DNA of 53,467 nt, from the NCBI GenBank assembly GCA_022511265.1, contig JAFLRX010000006.1, positions 46,459-99,925 of the forward strand. The letters run 5' to 3'. A program made the position numbers and the translations under genes. This document shows, in pieces, positions 7,541 through 48,423 of this stretch. The stretch is from Eubacterium sp. (GTDB lineage: Bacteria > Bacillota > Clostridia > Oscillospirales > Ruminococcaceae). The notes beneath the pieces are model-generated. The model saw only the letters and a list, made by a program, of their open reading frames with translations. It did not search any database and had not been told where the DNA came from. Position 1 is the stretch's first letter; each line of letters starts with the position of its first letter.

Positions 7541-7553
7541 TAATTAGAAGTTT

Positions 7554-7636
7554 ACGAACCCCCGCAAGAAATGTTCTTGCGGGGGTTCGTATATTATCAC
7601 AAAAACCCCCGAACGATTATGTCGTTCGGGGGTTTT
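7554..7636. terminator. Back-to-back terminators between convergent units
   Basis: Two perfect hairpins lie side by side. The first (7554-7570 with 7574-7590, loop ATG, 17-bp stem) follows the diguanylate cyclase on the + strand. The second (7602-7616 with 7622-7636, 15-bp stem) is followed by T5 on the minus strand and ends the opp operon. Both stems contain runs of five C/G. Confidence 0.88.
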
Positions 7637-7638
7637 AA

Positions 7639-7911
7639 TCACGTCCAAATAAGCAGCATCAAAAGCACTATCAAGCCCAGTCCTACTATGAACGCCAACG
7701 CGATAAGCAGTGCGGAGGATAATGCCCCCAGCACATACATTTTGCGCTCGTCATTGCTGAAGCTGAACTCGCTGCTGTCCTTTTCGGATTTTTCTGGTTT
7801 TTCGTTTTCGGATTGTTTCCGCTTGAATGAGAACGGCTGCGCCTGATATGTTCCGCTCATATCGGCGATGGTGCGGCCGTCATCGTCATCATAAACCTTT
7901 TTCCGTGCCAT
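7639..7911 (-). CDS. Small membrane protein at the end of the opp operon
   Basis: This 90-residue protein has an acidic and lysine-rich front half (residues 1-58, including KRKQSENEKPEKSEKDSS) and one or two hydrophobic segments at the C terminus (ALLIALAFIVGLGLIVLLMLLIW). Its ATG overlaps the oppF stop as TAATG, so translation is coupled to the transporter ATPase. The layout suggests a cytoplasmic tail on a membrane anchor. No family was recognised. A helper or regulator of the peptide transporter is possible from position alone. Confidence 0.75.
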   Translation of the reverse strand: MARKKVYDDDDGRTIADMSGTYQAQPFSFKRKQSENEKPEKSEKDSSEFSFSNDERKMYVLGALSSALLIALAFIVGLGLIVLLMLLIWT

Positions 7912-39648: not shown

Positions 39649-41322
39649 TTAATGCAGCCAATTGGTGACTATCTCCATGATTTCGTCGTCTATTTTCGAG
39701 GTCTTGTCAACTATCGAGCTGCTACCGCCGCGGCTGCCGTCATCTCCGTATTTAAGATCCTTTGAATAAGCGACCAGCATGATTATCATATCGGTTTTGC
39801 TTCCGTCGGATTTGACCGAGTCGCTTATGTCTAAAATCACTATCTCGGCACATTCGCCGTACAGGGTATATATGTTGCTGCTGCCGGTGTATTCATAAGA
39901 GTAAAAATACATATCGAAGTATTCATCCGGCTCTGAATAAAACGCGAGGTCGTATTTTCCGCCGGCAAGGTATTCGCAGTATTTATTTAAATAGTCTATA
40001 TTGTCGGGGGAGAACGCATAGACATAGCATAACAGATTTTCATCGCCCAAATATTCCATGCTGTCCAGCTTATGCCCCTTGGATACACCCAAGTACGACT
40101 CAACGCTGGGGAAAAAGTCCTTTTTGGTCACCGTGTTGCTGCCGGAGCCGGTATCACTTGTGTTGCTGCTGTTATTGCTATTGTTATTGTTATTGCTATT
40201 GTTACTGTTGTTGTCGGACGTATTAGATCCGGTGCTGCTTTCGTCATCCGAAATCGACATGTAGATAAATTCCGAGACCTCGACATTCTTATTCTTTACG
40301 TCATAGTCGCTGCGGCTGTGGTCATCACCGTAGGTCAAGTCGTTTGAGTATACCACCATTACCGCTACCACGTCATCGCCGATAGACTGATAATTGATTG
40401 CAAAGCATGCGCTGTATCCGTATAAGTTGATGTTCTTTACCGAGCCGTTACCGGAATATGTATAATAGCGCGCATTTTCCTCACGGTTGATCAGCTCTAT
40501 GTCATAGCCGCGCTTTTCTATATACTCGCAGTATTCCTCTATTGCGGCTATATCATTTTGTGATACACCGTAGCAAACGTAGGTTATACTGTCTAGGTCA
40601 ATGCCGCTGTCGGATACACTCATCTGTTCAAGCATATCACGCTCAATTTCGACACCTATGCCCAATCCGAAATATGAGCCAAAGCTGGGAACAAAATCCG
40701 CCAAGGTATCTCTGTCATCTTCGGGTTCGCTCTTTACGGGGGGCAAGGTTTCGATTTTGCTGCTTTCAGGTGCGCTGCTTATTATGTTTTCAGATGAGGT
40801 GTCACTGACAACGCTGTTGCTGCTGTTATCAGAGCTGTTTTCGCCTTCGCCGCCTCCGAAAAGCATAATCAGCAGAACTATTGCTCCCACAACCAGCACC
40901 GCTCCTGCAATGATGAGTGCGATGATAAGCCCCTTCTTGTTCTTTTTCTGTTGAGGGGGCTGCTGCCCCTGCTGCGGGACAGTACGGGCGTACTGCGGTG
41001 CCTGTTGAGGGAACGGTTGTGGCGCAGGCTGCGGAAACTCAGCCTGAGGTCCCTGCTGGGGGAAAGGCTGGGGCGCAGTTTGCGGGAACTCAGCCTGAGG
41101 TCCCTGTTGGGGGAAAGGCTGGGGTGCAGGCTGCGAGAACTGTGCCTGCGGTGCTTGTTGGGGAACAGGCTGCGGCACCGGCTGTGAGAACTCAGCCTGA
41201 GGCGCCTGCTGCGGAACAGGCTGGGGAGCAGGTGCTTCTATCGGCAAAACCGCCGCGCCGCAGTTGTAGCAGAATTTTGCGTTATCATCAAGCTGCGTTC
41301 CGCACTTGGTACAGAAAATCAT
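39649..41322 (-). CDS. Zinc-ribbon, PQ-linker, single-TM protein with two outside domains (paralog 2)
   Basis: The 557-residue protein has the same front as its neighbour: FCTKCG...FCYNCG, then a long repeated linker (units of PQPFPQQGPQAEF), KKNKKG and a membrane helix near residues 130-152. Outside are two copies of the unknown domain, starting DFVPSFGSYFGLGIG (about residue 210) and DFFPSVESYLGVSKG (about 400). They are joined by a Ser/Asn-rich linker. Each copy contains a CYGV/CYVYAFS strand, an Ile/Ala-X-EYCEY helix and a conserved VVYSNDLTYGDD/VAYSKDLKYGDD end. GGAGGAAAT precedes the ATG. It is probably co-transcribed with both paralogs. Confidence 0.82.
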   Translation of the reverse strand: MIFCTKCGTQLDDNAKFCYNCGAAVLPIEAPAPQPVPQQAPQAEFSQPVPQPVPQQAPQAQFSQPAPQPFPQQGPQAEFPQTAPQPFPQQGPQAEFPQPAPQPFPQQAPQYARTVPQQGQQPPQQKKNKKGLIIALIIAGAVLVVGAIVLLIMLFGGGEGENSSDNSSNSVVSDTSSENIISSAPESSKIETLPPVKSEPEDDRDTLADFVPSFGSYFGLGIGVEIERDMLEQMSVSDSGIDLDSITYVCYGVSQNDIAAIEEYCEYIEKRGYDIELINREENARYYTYSGNGSVKNINLYGYSACFAINYQSIGDDVVAVMVVYSNDLTYGDDHSRSDYDVKNKNVEVSEFIYMSISDDESSTGSNTSDNNSNNSNNNNNSNNSSNTSDTGSGSNTVTKKDFFPSVESYLGVSKGHKLDSMEYLGDENLLCYVYAFSPDNIDYLNKYCEYLAGGKYDLAFYSEPDEYFDMYFYSYEYTGSSNIYTLYGECAEIVILDISDSVKSDGSKTDMIIMLVAYSKDLKYGDDGSRGGSSSIVDKTSKIDDEIMEIVTNWLH

Positions 41323-41374: not shown

Positions 41375-41812
41375 TCAATAGCCGAAATAATCAAAATAAT
41401 CGTAATAATCGTCCCAGTCAAAATCATCGAAATAATCATCGTAATCATAACCGTAACCATAGCCGTTATTGTTGTTATTATTGTTATTTGCGTTGCTGCT
41501 GTTGTTGCCTTTATCTCCGCCTAACAATAAAATCAGCAGGACAACTATTCCCGCTATCAGCACGACCCCGCCGATAATCAATCCGATAATAAGCCCGGTG
41601 TGCTTTTTCGGCGGCATCATATAGCCGTTGGGATATTGCGGCATTTGCTGCTGGGGCATTTGCTGTTGAAGCATTTGCTGTTGGGGTATCTGCTGCGGTG
41701 CCTGCTGCGGCACGGGCTGCGGTGTTTGCTCCTCTGTTACAGGATTTCCGCATTTGTTGCAGAATTTTGTGTTGTCGTCAAGCTGCGCTCCGCATTTGGT
41801 ACAAAAAGTCAT
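41375..41812 (-). CDS. Zinc-ribbon, PQ-linker, single-TM protein, short form (paralog 3)
   Basis: The start at 41812 follows GGAGG at a good distance; the ATG at 41827 lies ahead of that site. The 145-residue protein repeats the pattern FCTKCG...FCNKCG, Gln/Pro/Met linker, and a membrane helix (LIIGLIIGGVVLIAGIVVLLILLL). It ends outside in an Asn run and a 30-residue tail made almost only of Asp, Tyr, Phe and Gly (DDYFDDFDWDDYYDYFDYFG). The large outside domain of paralogs 1 and 2 is missing. The acidic aromatic tail could bind cations or wall material, but this is speculation. It is first in the three-gene unit. Confidence 0.8.
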   Translation of the reverse strand: MTFCTKCGAQLDDNTKFCNKCGNPVTEEQTPQPVPQQAPQQIPQQQMLQQQMPQQQMPQYPNGYMMPPKKHTGLIIGLIIGGVVLIAGIVVLLILLLGGDKGNNSSNANNNNNNNNGYGYGYDYDDYFDDFDWDDYYDYFDYFGY

Positions 41813-41844
41813 AGCCAAGACCTCCATTATGATATTATTAAATA

Positions 41845-42465: not shown

Positions 42466-43896
42466 TTATCCTGCCAAATGCAGTATATTCAACAGCAAAA
42501 TCCAACTCATACCGTAATAGGTGACAACGGCGACAAGGTCGTTTATCGTGGTGATAAGCGGACCTGACGCGACCGCAGGGTCGATTTTTATTTTCTTGAA
42601 GAACAGAGGTACAGCCGTGCCGACTATACTGGATATAAGCATGGCAAGCAGCAGCGACACGCCGATACAGCCGGATACGGCAAAGCTGAACAGTAATTCT
42701 TTCTGTTTGAACAGCATTATATACAGACCTACAAACAGAAAAGAGATAACGCCCAATATCAGACCGTTGACAAATCCGACCCTCATTTCTTTTGCTACGA
42801 GATGAAACTTTTGCTTTCCTGTCAGTCCTTCATCCATCAGCACGCGGATAGTCACCGCCAGCGACTGCGTGCCGACGTTGCCTGACATATCCAGTATCAG
42901 AGACTGGAATGCCATTATCAGCGTAAGCTGTGAAACGACCTGTTCAAATACGCCGACCACGCCCGAAACGATCATGCCCAGTGCCAACAGTATCAAAAGC
43001 CACGGCATACGCTTTTTCATGCTTTTTATCAGAGGCTCTTTCAAATCCTCTTCAGAGGTCAGACCTGCAAGCTTTGCGTAATCCTCGCCCAACTCGTCGT
43101 CTACGACCTCAATAATGCTTGCCGCAGTGATAACGCCGAGCAATTGATTTGAATTATCCAGCACGGGAATATGATCTTCGGAGTAGTCCTTCAATCTTTC
43201 GATACAGTCATCTATCAGCTCATGCGCATAGACATAAGGGAAAGAGGTCTGTATCAATTCGTCAAGCGGATCGGCAGCATCGGCTGTGATAAGATCCTTA
43301 AGGTCAATTGCGCCGTAAAATTCTCCCGTTTCGTCTATTACAAAAAGCGTTGTAATATTATCATTTTCCTTTGCTTGGGAGATCAATTCGGACATCGCCT
43401 GCTTTATCGTCAGATTTTCACGGATAACAATGCAGTTTGTTGTCATGCGTGAACCGATCTCATCATCATCAAAGGTTGCGATAAGCTGAATTTCCTGCCT
43501 GATTTCCTGCGGCAGTAATTCTATGATCGCGGTACGTTTTTCCTTCTCAATTTCGCGCAGAATATTGGCGGCGGTATCGGTCTCCATTTCCGATACAACG
43601 GCAGCCGCTTTCTGCATGTCCATTTCATTCAGATAAGTGCCTGCCTCGTCAAGATACTCAAAGATCTCCGCAAGCATTTCAACCGTACAAATGCGGTACA
43701 GCTTTTTTCTCTCCTGAATATCAATACTTTCCATCGCTTGCGCAAGGTCGTTGGCATGGTAGTCCTCCAACTGTGCCAGCATAACCTTCGGCGCGGAATT
43801 TCCTCTGATTATGTTCAGTATTTCCTTTTCATAATCAGGTTTTTCCATCACCTCTGCCGCATTATGGACAGCGACCTTTTTTTCTTCATTTGACAT
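42466..43896 (-). CDS. mgtE: Magnesium transporter MgtE
   Basis: The start at 43896 is fixed by GGAGGAAAT; the frame is open 21 codons further up. The 476-residue protein has the MgtE_N helical domain (about residues 25-125, with FDDDEIGSRMTTNCIVI leading on), two CBS domains (about 130-255), and five membrane helices from about 280 to the end. The pore motif regions GNVGTQSLAV and DPAVASGPLITTINDL hold the conserved Asp. MgtE is a Mg2+ channel gated by Mg2+ binding to the N and CBS domains. Its transcript has a leader of about 260 bases with a short ORF and a terminator, so it is probably regulated by attenuation. Confidence 0.95.
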   Translation of the reverse strand: MSNEEKKVAVHNAAEVMEKPDYEKEILNIIRGNSAPKVMLAQLEDYHANDLAQAMESIDIQERKKLYRICTVEMLAEIFEYLDEAGTYLNEMDMQKAAAVVSEMETDTAANILREIEKEKRTAIIELLPQEIRQEIQLIATFDDDEIGSRMTTNCIVIRENLTIKQAMSELISQAKENDNITTLFVIDETGEFYGAIDLKDLITADAADPLDELIQTSFPYVYAHELIDDCIERLKDYSEDHIPVLDNSNQLLGVITAASIIEVVDDELGEDYAKLAGLTSEEDLKEPLIKSMKKRMPWLLILLALGMIVSGVVGVFEQVVSQLTLIMAFQSLILDMSGNVGTQSLAVTIRVLMDEGLTGKQKFHLVAKEMRVGFVNGLILGVISFLFVGLYIMLFKQKELLFSFAVSGCIGVSLLLAMLISSIVGTAVPLFFKKIKIDPAVASGPLITTINDLVAVVTYYGMSWILLLNILHLAG

Positions 43897-43956
43897 AATA
43901 TTTCCTCCGTTTACATTGTCATAAAATCTGCTGCTGATTTTATGCAGAGCAACGGG

Positions 43957-44012
43957 CAAAAAAGGTATAAAAAGACCTCCGCGGTCAACCGATTTACAAG
44001 TCAGGCGGAGGT
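43957..44012 (-). terminator. Attenuator terminator in the mgtE leader
   Basis: On the minus strand, ACCTCCGC (plus 44005-44012) pairs with GCGGAGGT (plus 43975-43982), followed by CTTTTTATACCTTTTTT. It lies about 60 bases before the mgtE start codon, inside the transcribed leader. The 5' arm is also the last codons of the leader ORF, and ACCTC of this arm is complementary to GAGGT at the leader ORF's own ribosome site. Confidence 0.82.
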
Positions 44013-44129
44013 AAGCGGTATATCATTGCGCAGAGTAAAGAAAGCGTCAGACAGCATAGTCCGCAGCATAATGATATACAGCCGTTTTCGTCCTTTTGAC
44101 CCGCAACTATCGCCGTTTGGCACGTTCAT
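44001..44129 (-). CDS. Putative 42-residue leader peptide of mgtE
   Basis: An ATG at 44129, directly after TGAGGTGA, opens 42 codons with no stop until TGA at 44001-44003. The peptide begins MNVPNGDS, has a basic stretch (KGRKR), a hydrophobic middle (LYIIMLRTML) and ends RNDIPLTSA. It starts about 30 bases after the predicted transcript start, and its last four codons before the stop overlap the 5' arm of the mgtE attenuator. A ribosome that finishes the ORF would cover that arm and stop the terminator from forming. The SD-to-ATG distance is short. That it is translated is inferred from frame length, RBS and position. Confidence 0.6.
   Translation of the reverse strand: MNVPNGDSCGSKGRKRLYIIMLRTMLSDAFFTLRNDIPLTSA
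44018..44079 (-). promoter_or_regulatory. Long-range 10-bp stem in the mgtE leader
   Basis: GTATATCATT (44018-44027) and AATGATATAC (44070-44079) are perfect complements enclosing 42 bases, all within the leader ORF. The stem would have to be opened by ribosomes translating the ORF and could pause or time transcription. The leader does not show the conserved core of the M-box Mg2+ riboswitch as I remember it. Confidence 0.6.
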
Positions 44130-44164
44130 TCACCTCACAGTTTGTTAGATTACAACATAGTTAC

Positions 44165-44193
44165 AGTATATCATATCTGTTATACAATGTCAA
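44165..44193 (-). promoter_or_regulatory. Promoter of the mgtE leader transcript
   Basis: On the minus strand, TTGACA (44188-44193) and TATACT (44165-44170) are separated by 17 bp. The expected start near 44158 gives a leader of about 260 bases before mgtE. Upstream, 44195-44370 shows no ORF with a ribosome site. Confidence 0.85.
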
Positions 44194-44373: not shown

Positions 44374-44414
44374 AAGCGCAGGTTGAAAAATCTTTGATTT
44401 TTCAACCTGCGCTT
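44374..44414. terminator. Long perfect hairpin downstream of larE
   Basis: A 19-bp perfect stem (44374-44392 with 44396-44414) with loop TTT lies 40 bp beyond the larE stop codon. T runs on either side are short, so it may act as a terminator in both directions with modest strength or as an mRNA end barrier. Confidence 0.7.
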
Positions 44415-44454: not shown

Positions 44455-45267
44455 TTAAACAACATTATCAAGCATCTTATTCATGCTTCCCATCTTATAC
44501 CCGCCGAGGTCCAGCGTTACATAAAAAAATCCCAACTCTTTGAAGTATTTGTCCAGCTCTTCGGCTATCTGTACTACCTTCGGCAATTCGTCGGGCAGCA
44601 CCTCAATACGCGCGATATTTCCGTGTATGCGTACCCGCACTTGATGAAAGCCGAGGTCCAGCAGCCGCTGCTCGGCCTTGTCCACCATGCCCAGCTTTTC
44701 CTCGGTTATCGTCTCACCGTACACAAAGCGGGAGGACAGGCAGGCAAAGGATTGCTTGTCCCATGTGGGCAGACACAGCTCTTTTGACAGCTGACGTATC
44801 TCTTCTTTGGATAATTCAGCTTCGCGCAGCGGGCTTTTTACCCCCAGCTCCGCCACCGCTATCAGCCCCGGACGATAGTCGCCGTTATCGTCGGTGTTAG
44901 AGCCCTCCGCCACATAAGCGATACCTTTGCTTTGTGCTATGCCCTTTATCTTGGTGAACAGCTCGTGCTTGCAGAGATAGCAGCGGTTTTTGGGGTTTTG
45001 GGCAAATCCGTCTATAGACAGTTCCTCCGACTCAACAATGACCTGCTCTATTCCTTCCGCCGCGCAAAAGGCTTTCGCCTCGTTCAGCTCCCGCTGCGGG
45101 AACGAGCAGGAGCGCGCGGTCACCGCTATCGCCTTATCGCCCAGTACGTCATGCGCCACCTTTAACAAAAAGGTAGAATCCACACCTGAGGAAAAGGCAA
45201 CAGCCACGCTGCCCAAGCCTTTCAGATATTCCTCTAAACGCTGCTTTTTCTGATGTAATATATCCAT
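44455..45267 (-). CDS. larE: LarE, sulfur-inserting enzyme of nickel-pincer cofactor synthesis
   Basis: The 270-residue PP-loop ATP pyrophosphatase has the SSGVDSTFLLKVA nucleotide loop at residues 26-38. LarE adenylates the pyridinium biscarboxylate intermediate and inserts sulfur. The Cys in SFACLSSRFVYGE fits the position of the sulfur-donating Cys of Lactobacillus LarE. An extra CYLCK pair near residue 97 suggests the variant that uses a [4Fe-4S] cluster bound by three Cys and so is not consumed in one turnover. That choice is inference. Its ATG directly follows the larC stop, so the two are translationally coupled. Confidence 0.92.
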   Translation of the reverse strand: MDILHQKKQRLEEYLKGLGSVAVAFSSGVDSTFLLKVAHDVLGDKAIAVTARSCSFPQRELNEAKAFCAAEGIEQVIVESEELSIDGFAQNPKNRCYLCKHELFTKIKGIAQSKGIAYVAEGSNTDDNGDYRPGLIAVAELGVKSPLREAELSKEEIRQLSKELCLPTWDKQSFACLSSRFVYGETITEEKLGMVDKAEQRLLDLGFHQVRVRIHGNIARIEVLPDELPKVVQIAEELDKYFKELGFFYVTLDLGGYKMGSMNKMLDNVV

Positions 45268-46518
45268 TTACTTTTGCTCCTCCACAAGCCTGCGCGCATC
45301 CTCAATGCTGATGTTCTTTTCCGCCGCGATACGCGCAAGGTCATCGTATTCGTATTTTACACGGGAGACGCCGTATCCGCAGGATTTTTTGATATGCACC
45401 GTTCCGTAAGGAGTGTCCAGTGTCTCTATACTGCGGTCAAGGATATACCTGCGGGTCGCAGTCTCTCTCACGCCTATGGTGGTAGTATGCTTAAAAATCA
45501 GCGACAGCAGGTTTTCTCTGTCCTGCTCTTTGCACATGACCCGCAGCAGTATGCCGGGTCGGGATTTTTTCATGCCTATCGGTACGGTATAGACCTCAAG
45601 CGCGCCGACCTCAAACAGCCGCTCCATAGCAAAGCCTATCTCCTCCGCGGTCATATCGTCAACATTGCAGGATAATTCCGACACCTCGTCGGTCTTGTCC
45701 GCCGTCTCTCCCAGCATGGCACGCACGCAGTTGGCGGCGGGAAAATCCTTTTTGCCCATTCCGTAGCCGATAGCCTGCGTTTTCATCACAGGCATAGCGC
45801 CAAAGCGGGTCGCAAAGTGCTTTAACAGTGCCGCGCCTGTCGGGGTGCATAGCTCGCCGTTTATCTCTCCGCCGTATATCGGCACGTCTTTCAGTATATA
45901 CGCTGTTGCGGGGGCGGGGACGGGGAGTATGCCGTGTGCGCATTTTACCTGTCCGCTGCCGACATGGACGGGGGAGACTATCACCTCATCAGGCGACAGC
46001 CTGTCCATCAGCAGGCAGACCGCGCTAACGTCCGCCACCGCGTCCATGGTACCCACCTCGTGAAAATGTATCTGGGTCATCGGCACGCCGTGCGCGGCAC
46101 TTTCCGCCTCGGCGATAAGCCCATACACCGCCAGCACATCCTCCCGCACCTTTTGCGGCAGGGAAATATGCGACAGTATATGCTCTATATCATGCATACT
46201 GCTGTGGTGGTGAGTATGTGTATGTCCGTGCTCATGGGAATGCTCGTGCTCATGTTCATGTTCGTGAGTGTGTTCATGGGTGTGCTCATGGTGATGATGC
46301 ATTTCCTCGTTTTCCTCTTCACCGTTTACGGTAACAGAGATGTGTGTACCGGTGATACCGCATTTTACGGCAGATTGCTTAGCTATCTTCACATCGGGTA
46401 TACCCAGCGCGTTAAGCTCGTCTATAAACTTATCCGGTTCCGGCAGCAGATCGACCAGCGCGGCGGTCAGCATATCGCCCGCCGCCCCCATCGAACAGTC
46501 TAAATAAAGTGTTTTCAT
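45268..46518 (-). CDS. larC: LarC, nickel insertase of nickel-pincer cofactor synthesis
   Basis: The 416-residue CTP-dependent nickel insertase inserts Ni into the dithiolated pincer nucleotide. The N terminus DCSMGAAGDMLTAAL and IHFHEVGTMDAVADV are family hallmarks. A His/Glu tract of about 40 residues (about 74-113) lies in the first domain and probably stores or delivers nickel. In Lactobacillus plantarum, LarC is made from two frames by programmed frameshift; here both halves are one unbroken frame. AAGGAG precedes the ATG. It lies 18 bp after an acetyltransferase gene and abuts larE. Confidence 0.94.
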   Translation of the reverse strand: MKTLYLDCSMGAAGDMLTAALVDLLPEPDKFIDELNALGIPDVKIAKQSAVKCGITGTHISVTVNGEEENEEMHHHHEHTHEHTHEHEHEHEHSHEHGHTHTHHHSSMHDIEHILSHISLPQKVREDVLAVYGLIAEAESAAHGVPMTQIHFHEVGTMDAVADVSAVCLLMDRLSPDEVIVSPVHVGSGQVKCAHGILPVPAPATAYILKDVPIYGGEINGELCTPTGAALLKHFATRFGAMPVMKTQAIGYGMGKKDFPAANCVRAMLGETADKTDEVSELSCNVDDMTAEEIGFAMERLFEVGALEVYTVPIGMKKSRPGILLRVMCKEQDRENLLSLIFKHTTTIGVRETATRRYILDRSIETLDTPYGTVHIKKSCGYGVSRVKYEYDDLARIAAEKNISIEDARRLVEEQK

Positions 46519-47667: not shown

Positions 47668-48423
47668 TTATACTTTTGCGTCAATATGATTTATCATGCT
47701 TGCGAGATACCCCGCGCCGAAGCCATTGTCGATATTCACCACCGACACGCCGCTGGCGCAGGAATTTAGCATAGACAACAGCGCGGACAAGCCGTTGAAT
47801 GACGCGCCGTAGCCAACACTTGTCGGCACGGCGATAACGGGGCAGTCCGCCAGCCCGCCGATAACGCTGGCAAGTGCCCCCTCCATACCCGCGATGGCAA
47901 CAATCACGCTTGCGCTCATGATGTCCTCTTTATGCGATAACAGGCGGTGCAGACCCGCAACCCCCACATCATACAGCCGTACCACCTCGTTGCCGAGTAT
48001 CTCGGCGGTCAGCGCGGACTCTTCCGCAACTGGAATATCGCTTGTCCCACCGGTCGCGACAACTATCCGCCCTATGCCGCTCGGTTGCGGCATATCTCCG
48101 ATTATACCTATCCTCGCGTCAGCGTGATAGGTGAGGGGACAGGTTGATTGTATCTTCTCGGCATTCTCGGCAGAAAGGCGGGTGATAAGTATTCGCTCCT
48201 GCCCGTTTTTCTTCATGGTGTCTATTATGCCCAGCATCTGCTCGGCGGTCTTTCCCGCGCCGTATATCACTTCGGCTGCGCCCTGACGCACCTTGCGGTG
48301 CAGGTCTACCTTGGCGTAGCCTATATCCTCAAACGGCTCGGTCTTTAATTTCAGCAGTGCGTCCTCCACCGACATGCTGCCGTCACGCACCGCGGTGAGT
48401 ATTTGCTTTGCCTCACTGTTCAT
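47668..48423 (-). CDS. larB: LarB, carboxylase/hydrolase of nickel-pincer cofactor synthesis
   Basis: The 251-residue protein related to PurE carboxylases carries out the first step of pincer nucleotide synthesis: carboxylation and hydrolysis of nicotinic acid adenine dinucleotide to the pyridinium biscarboxylate mononucleotide. Recognisable blocks are GAGKTAEQMLGI, VVATGGTSDIPVAEESALTAEILG, YDVGVAGLHRLL, VIVAIAGMEGALASVIGGL and AVPTSVGYGASFNGLSALLSMLNSCASGV, then NIDNGFGAGYLASMI. GGGGGAAA precedes the ATG. It heads the larB-GNAT-GNAT-larC-larE set. The client enzyme (LarA or a relative) is not in the window. Confidence 0.94.
   Translation of the reverse strand: MNSEAKQILTAVRDGSMSVEDALLKLKTEPFEDIGYAKVDLHRKVRQGAAEVIYGAGKTAEQMLGIIDTMKKNGQERILITRLSAENAEKIQSTCPLTYHADARIGIIGDMPQPSGIGRIVVATGGTSDIPVAEESALTAEILGNEVVRLYDVGVAGLHRLLSHKEDIMSASVIVAIAGMEGALASVIGGLADCPVIAVPTSVGYGASFNGLSALLSMLNSCASGVSVVNIDNGFGAGYLASMINHIDAKV

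Follow-up and report, generated by a model that had tools for sequence, protein, structure and literature searches.

In Firmicutes, Mg2+ transporter genes can be controlled through their leaders by the M-box (ykoK leader, RF00380), as cited for mgtE of B. subtilis in PMC3641672. In Salmonella, short ORFs in the mgtCBR operon (mgtQ, mgtP and mgtM) stand before the Mg2+ transporter gene and their translation picks between alternative stem-loops; mgtQ needs acidic residues at its codons 2 and 5 if the Mg2+ transporter downstream is to be expressed (PMC8092293), and mgtP carries three proline codons in a row (PMC3641672). Our analysis concerned an mgtE leader of a clostridial Eubacterium sp., located in a stretch of 53,467 nucleotides that is referred to as a whole as the window. 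Covariance-model searching gave no M-box match in the window or in its genome (99.9 percent complete), in agreement with the original prediction that an M-box core is not apparent, and the same search gave matches in B. subtilis and L. lactis as a positive control. Searches of open-access papers gave no description of the leader among the papers listed, and it seems to be an undescribed link between magnesium uptake and translation.

Organization of the mgtE locus in the window

The minus strand of the window carries, in order, a promoter, a Shine-Dalgarno sequence (SD), a short upstream ORF (uORF), an intrinsic terminator and mgtE. The features and their basis were as follows.

44165..44193, minus strand: sigma-70-type promoter of the mgtE transcript, TTGACA-17-TATACT with an extended -10 (TG); 11/12 consensus matches, a consensus match only.
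44131..44136, minus strand: SD of the uORF, GAGGTG, 7 nt 5' of GTG 44123; from the sequence, with a similar SD at the same place in relatives.
44001..44123, minus strand: uORF of 40 codons from GTG to TGA, encoding M(V)PNGDSCGSKGRKRLYIIMLRTMLSDAFFTLRNDIPLTSA; 54 leaders retain the frame, with exchanged start codons and whole-codon indels.
44088..44111, minus strand: core, codons 5-12, GATAGTTGCGGGTCAAAAGGACGA, conserved peptide and putative antiterminator strand; conservation, pairing tests, modelling.
44070..44079, minus strand: 5' arm of stem P2 (stem A), GTATATCATT; fold, shuffle z-scores.
44018..44027, minus strand: 3' arm of stem P2 (stem A), AATGATATAC; fold, shuffle z-scores.
43991..44003, minus strand: predicted antiterminator partner TGACTTGTAAATC, the terminator 5' half and loop with the TGA stop included, pairing with the core; duplex of -23.7 kcal/mol, minimum-energy leader fold.
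43975..44012, minus strand: intrinsic terminator hairpin, then CTTTTTAT; hairpin and T-run.
43949..43965, minus strand: post-terminator segment CCTTTTTTGCCCGTTGC, predicted second partner of the core (P1); fold, duplex of -23.0 kcal/mol, own-versus-foreign test.
43921..43943, minus strand: small hairpin ATAAAATC/GATTTTAT 5' of the mgtE SD; from the sequence.
42466..43896, minus strand: mgtE (MgtE_N, CBS and MgtE domains), with SD GGAGG at 43904-43908; domain matches.

The transcript start proposed near 44158 is reasonable given this promoter. The ORF originally described as having 42 codons (44001-44129) is present, and its start is probably GTG 44123 (40 codons) rather than ATG 44129, because only 1 nt separates the SD from the ATG, as against 7 nt for the GTG, and because relatives begin at the GTG position. 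The 10-bp stem predicted inside the ORF is P2, the region of which had a z-score of -4.4 against dinucleotide shuffles. The final uORF codons and the TGA fall within the terminator stem, which is followed by the T-run, and the gap from terminator to mgtE is about 78 nt instead of the 60 bases estimated before. This terminator was absent from a simple terminator scan, probably because its loop is longer than 8 nt, and its hairpin taken alone (2 nt short at the 5' end) was no better than shuffles (z -1.2). When the window leader was folded up to the T-run, the antiterminator was the minimum-energy structure, with a whole-fold stability that was not significant against shuffles (z -1.3). The window mgtE matched TIGR00400 at 268.9 bits (cut-off 232.75), as well as PF01769, PF03448 and CBS, and its genome gave a single MgtE domain match.

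Upstream of mgtE on the same strand are the nickel-pincer cofactor genes larE and larC at 44455-46518 and 47668-48423 (TIGR00268, TIGR00299, NF052512), larC with a long His-rich stretch, together with an ORF which, from its translation, we take to be LarB-like. At 44374-44414, in the interval separating larE from the mgtE promoter, a perfect 19-bp inverted repeat with a 3-nt loop, AAGCGCAGGTTGAAAAATC/GATTTTTCAACCTGCGCTT, resembles a lar-gene terminator or a repeat element. The neighbouring ORFs at 39649-41322 and 41375-41827 (minus strand) showed by eye a zinc-ribbon-like N-terminus (FCTKCGxQLDDNxKFCxxCG) and PQ-rich repeats. Elsewhere in the window, an Rfam sodF_sRNA match at 7553-7641 (minus strand) scored 47.9 bits, barely over the cut-off of 46.

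Distribution of the leader and constraint on its reading frame

The leader N-terminus, M-x-N-G-D-S-C-G-S-x-G-R, was found again 5' of mgtE in records of Ruminococcus albus, other Ruminococcus/Oscillospiraceae and Lachnospiraceae. At E <= 1 the genus search matched 14 of 71 genomes, that of the window among them. Among the weak matches judged (L003-L008, L010, L011 and L013, with L009, L012 and L014-L016 left out), L003, L004 and L008 were leaders 5' of mgtE, and L005, L006, L007, L010, L011 and L013 were not leader-like on a partial view of their sequence. The mgtE genes after two of these leaders are discontinuous, with the first codons joined to the far C-terminus in L003 and inserted sequence after about 30 codons in L004.

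Run on 396 family genomes, a sequence-only leader model built from 14 leaders matched 26 times at E <= 1e-3, including 11 of its 14 building sequences; 25 of the 26 were upstream of mgtE and one was at a contig end. At the same threshold 394 order genomes gave three matches, two of them already known, and 291 class genomes gave four, one being that of the window itself. The four new order and class loci were all upstream of mgtE, and L118 among them is the same leader as L114. In one search many matches at E 0.001-0.1 look like chance; 30 loci were retrieved and 20 inspected, of which those having an SD, a start and mgtE were retained. An exact DNA pattern scan of genome contigs that was blind to mgtE returned 38 stretches, with record titles including three Ruminococcus albus strains, Oscillospiraceae and Lachnospiraceae. 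An SD and start in register were present in 28 of these, 26 of which were followed by mgtE and two of which were cut off, and the other ten had neither the SD and start in register nor mgtE. Seven of the 26 pattern-scan leaders duplicate leaders from earlier searches.

From the mgtE side, MgtE was found at E <= 1e-60 in 4 of 61 genomes and in 45 of 382 family genomes. Among the 31 genomes with an MgtE of at least 65 percent identity, counting by eye, the leader was present in 28 (one of which, G440, has leader and mgtE on separate contigs) and missing in one (L126), L125 having too little upstream sequence and G348 being left out. For MgtEs of less than 60 percent identity none of the leader-model matches listed adjoins the gene, and L123, the sole such locus inspected, has a diverged form of the leader. 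In L126 (G433), a natural absence, mgtE at 74 percent identity has promoter-like sequence close 5' by eye, and another relative (L145, G245) has two tandem mgtE genes. Searching the leader peptide against phages and plasmids gave no matches.

The comparative set comprised 54 distinct leaders, 21 of them non-redundant (less than 60 percent similarity). Excluded before counting were L061, L093 and L102 (cut by a contig or locus end), the ten pattern-scan stretches without SD, start and mgtE, the duplicates L079, L080, L081, L088, L096, L100 and L106, L112 (no start found by script, peptide as in L047) and, by eye, L118. A terminator was assigned in 48 of the 54 leaders and six had no clear terminator. 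The six outside the 48-leader tests were L051 and L073 (no automatic terminator), L124 (none given) and L072, L085 and L103 (automatic terminator judged misplaced). Thirteen terminators were set by eye before the tests (L049, L056, L057, L060, L063, L069, L082, L101, L116, L117, L119, L123 and L138; L116 twice). Since the leaders are related, the larger sets give p-values that are underestimates, and figures from the 16 non-redundant leaders are fairer.

The reading frame, the loss of which in orthologs would have counted against the original prediction, was kept across the 54 leaders. To judge from sequence variation, this frame is under selection, because start codons vary between GTG (44 leaders), ATG (8) and TTG (2), indels in the core by eye amount to whole codons (one fewer in L067, shorter in L068, L069, L071 and L072, one more in L138) and in-frame stops are rare. 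Beyond the core (nt 37-84), of the 54 leaders one has stops in frame, whereas 26 and 28 leaders have them in the two alternative frames (p = 2.5e-11); of the 21 non-redundant leaders none has stops in frame, versus 12 and 11 (p = 5e-6). Minority letters in codons 3-12 of 33 distinct ungapped leaders numbered 30, 32 and 78 of 330 each at codon positions 1, 2 and 3, a distribution in which C/T changes at third positions of the core could also maintain G-C/G-U pairs. Conservation is concentrated in the N-terminal 12-14 codons, and the peptide end NDIPLTSA that had been proposed for recognizing relatives is not kept. The residue at aligned codon 5 is acidic in 53 of the 54 leaders (Asp in 52, Glu in one). 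Conserved runs of one amino acid's codons were absent, three-residue runs within codons 2-16 occurring in three of 54 (L003, L004 and L138; Arg twice, Ser once), and an adjacent proline pair was found in one of the 54 leader peptides.

Core pairing and modelled ribosome position

Codons 4-17, the core segment, are predicted to base-pair with the loop and 5' half of the terminator, a region in which the motif TGAC[CT] occurs in 20 of 48 leaders versus 3.5 expected from mononucleotide shuffles. Pairing of each core with its own terminator was better than with foreign terminators by 4.1 kcal/mol (43/48 leaders, p = 6e-9), and with control partners (mid ORF, and sequence upstream of the SD) own pairing was slightly worse than foreign. 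The preference for the own terminator was also seen in the non-redundant set (15/16, p = 9e-5; controls p = 0.86 and 0.23), without the 13 hand-set terminators (31/35, p = 7e-7) and with automatic terminators throughout (37/46, p = 1.5e-7). Pairing of the core with the post-terminator segment (P1) was better with the own partner in 30/48 (p = 2e-4), 14/16 (p = 8e-4) and 22/35 (p = 0.007) leaders. A duplex test against shuffled partners, which is weaker than the own-versus-foreign test, reached p < 0.05 for core and terminator in 20/46 leaders and for core and P1 in 9/46. The P2 stem between core and terminator had a mean z-score of -3.2, with 38 of 47 leaders at p <= 0.05. From these comparisons the core codons appear to double as an RNA strand that coevolves with the terminator and, less strongly, with the segment beyond it. 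Some leaders (L058, L060 and L063), though not that of the window, show by eye a hairpin that conceals the mgtE SD.

The consequence of ribosome position was modelled as P(terminator), the mean probability of the terminator stem in RNA extending to the terminator end, a measure of equilibrium folding only. Across the 48 leaders, median P(terminator) was 0.80 for free RNA, 0.24 with the start site occupied (nt -20..+18) and 0.95 with the core covered. Shuffling the core raised the start-occupied median to 0.90, the native value being lower in 39/48 (p = 4e-8), and in free RNA P(terminator) was lower with the native than with the shuffled core in 35/48 leaders. In the window the values were 0.18 (free), 0.20 (start occupied) and 0.89 (core covered), and a shuffled core gave 0.90 and 0.87. 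Eleven of the 48 leaders were above 0.8 in all three states alike, and L104, L116 and L123 were below 0.5 even with the core covered.

As the ribosome was moved along the uORF, the median was lowest at codon 1 (0.38), the terminator was favoured over codons 3-22, and read-through partly returned at codons 24-28 (0.51-0.74). The window followed with 0.07 at codon 1, 0.83-0.90 at codons 2-22 and 0.09-0.11 at codons 23-27. With the P-site at codon 2 of the window the terminator is already restored (0.85), and read-through in this model is therefore favoured only if the core is empty or the ribosome is still at codon 1. Ribosomes on the core (codons 3-22) are thus predicted to favour the terminator and to turn mgtE off, which over these codons is the opposite of the effect originally proposed, because the uORF core, coevolving with the terminator, would form the antiterminator. 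A fast ribosome past codon 23 or so could also give read-through in the model, since a ribosome beyond this point frees the core again, and this would reverse the dependence on translation speed. The modelled change in accessibility of the mgtE SD had the predicted sign in 38 of 48 leaders and was small (median 0.19 free, 0.14 core covered).

Candidate attenuation mechanism and comparison with described systems

We consider it somewhat better than an even chance that mgtE is under ribosome-mediated transcription attenuation exerted by a translated uORF, with the early uORF codons as the antiterminator strand and low Mg2+ leading to less occupancy of the core. With no ribosome on codons 3-22 or so, the core would fold over P2, which would bring core and terminator together, onto the terminator 5' arm and loop, and transcription would read through into mgtE. 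Ribosomes occupying or pausing on these codons would mask the core, allowing the terminator to form and keeping mgtE off. Once the polymerase has read through, the core may pair with the segment just 3' of the terminator (P1), which may help to expose the mgtE SD. Low Mg2+ would presumably lower ribosome occupancy of the core, through poor initiation or through abortion at the early acidic residue, and switch mgtE on. This proposal retains the original idea of a translation-sensing control of mgtE without an M-box, with which frame selection, M-box absence and the anatomy of the leader agree; the mechanism first stated for it appears to be mostly a feature of this one locus.

More tentatively, and with the balance of probability against it, the nascent peptide M-x-N-G-D-S-C-G-S-x-G-R may itself be a Mg2+-responsive arrest or abort peptide on which the ribosome lingers at sufficient Mg2+, in which case the 36-nt segment would act at once as a peptide sensor, as the antiterminator and, after read-through, as the P1 strand that exposes the mRNA, and would stand in for an M-box in these gut and rumen Clostridia.

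It is unlikely that the uORF is regulatory and responds to a signal other than Mg2+, such as translation capacity, an antibiotic or charged tRNA. Mg2+ as the signal is inferred from the association with mgtE alone, the downstream gene being the sole pointer to it; against another signal, all leaders with long enough downstream sequence precede mgtE, and the leaders do not conserve a codon run for one amino acid.

A reversed attenuation, in which a ribosome held at initiation or on the very first codons leaves the core free as antiterminator and mgtE on, has in its favour the low P(terminator) with nt -20..+18 occupied or with the P-site at codon 1. We nevertheless regard this as quite improbable, as the terminator is favoured again once the P-site has reached codon 3 (in the window, codon 2) and only a narrow range of positions would work.

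The original prediction held that a ribosome at the TGA masks the terminator 5' arm and lets transcription continue, and that stalling or failed initiation leads to the terminator, aided by pairing of the arm with the SD of the uORF. In the window the uORF end does overlap the terminator, a ribosome at the stop gives P(terminator) of 0.00, a ribosome stalled at codons 2-22 gives the high values described above and the SD pairing fits. Also in its favour, P(terminator) with a ribosome at the stop is below 0.5 in 16/47 leaders (median 0.80). Across the leaders, however, the overlap occurs in only 6/48 (the other gaps are 3-67 nt, with one of 181), and a 5-nt complement to the SD (ACCTC, CACCT or CCTCC) in the terminator 5' arm is present in 3/48. 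Failed initiation is likewise not predicted to terminate in the window, given the low value for RNA without a ribosome. As a general account of these leaders the masking of the arm at the stop codon is therefore hard to credit. Least probable is a classic riboswitch or protein-binding RNA with an incidental ORF, for while core nucleotides are strongly conserved and P1, P2 and the terminator have a junction-like architecture, stops are absent from one frame beyond the core, start codons are swapped, indels are in frame, and neither the window leader nor any of 20 relative loci gave an Rfam match that reached its cut-off.

If the attenuation by core-bound ribosomes that we favour is true, a large group of gut and rumen bacteria would have translation-based control of a Mg2+ transporter gene. 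One short segment would serve as both conserved peptide and switching RNA strand, and its frame and pairing constraints are separable. If Mg2+ is the signal, this would suggest that enterics and Clostridia reached Mg2+ sensing via ribosome behaviour separately.

In comparison with known systems, the Clostridia leader resembles the Salmonella mgtCBR leader ORFs in the arrangement outlined at the beginning, and its acidic codon 5 is matched in position by one of the two acidic codons (2 and 5) given for mgtQ in PMC8092293. Unlike mgtP, the conserved part of the Clostridia leader has no run of proline codons. It further differs from the Salmonella ORFs in its intrinsic terminator, for which the codons of the uORF would themselves be the antiterminator, in its gene (MgtE, not MgtB/MgtA) and in its host (Clostridia, not enterics); mgtL, mgtP, mgtQ and corL were set apart from it by literature and by eye. 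Like the M-box, it would place a Mg2+ transporter gene of Firmicutes under the control of its leader, but a translated ORF would here supply the switching strand. The mgtE motif SRC-65-1 (PMC11109978) is likewise a candidate RNA upstream of mgtE; this source describes it from a single genus, Thioalkalivibrio, and places SD and AUG within a large P4 stem, the passages on the motif mentioning no uORF, and by this description alone it was set aside as the identity of the leader. The M. tuberculosis uORF rv1805A (PMC12810186) offers a Mg2+ context and a conserved uORF, but there sensing is by an M-box and termination depends on Rho, unlike in the Clostridia leader. The Corynebacterium ilvB attenuator (PMC11109978) has a uORF, terminator and antiterminator as here; codons for the sensed amino acids are over-represented in its uORF, whereas the conserved part of the Clostridia leader shows no such bias and its conserved codons are predicted to be base-paired. 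Taken together, sequence and folding models suggest that the leader acts like ribosome-mediated transcription attenuation, with a uORF with SD, an intrinsic terminator and a predicted antiterminator exclusive with it, and that it departs from the norm of that class in having no codon run for a sensed amino acid and in a putative antiterminator strand that is the conserved coding segment itself.
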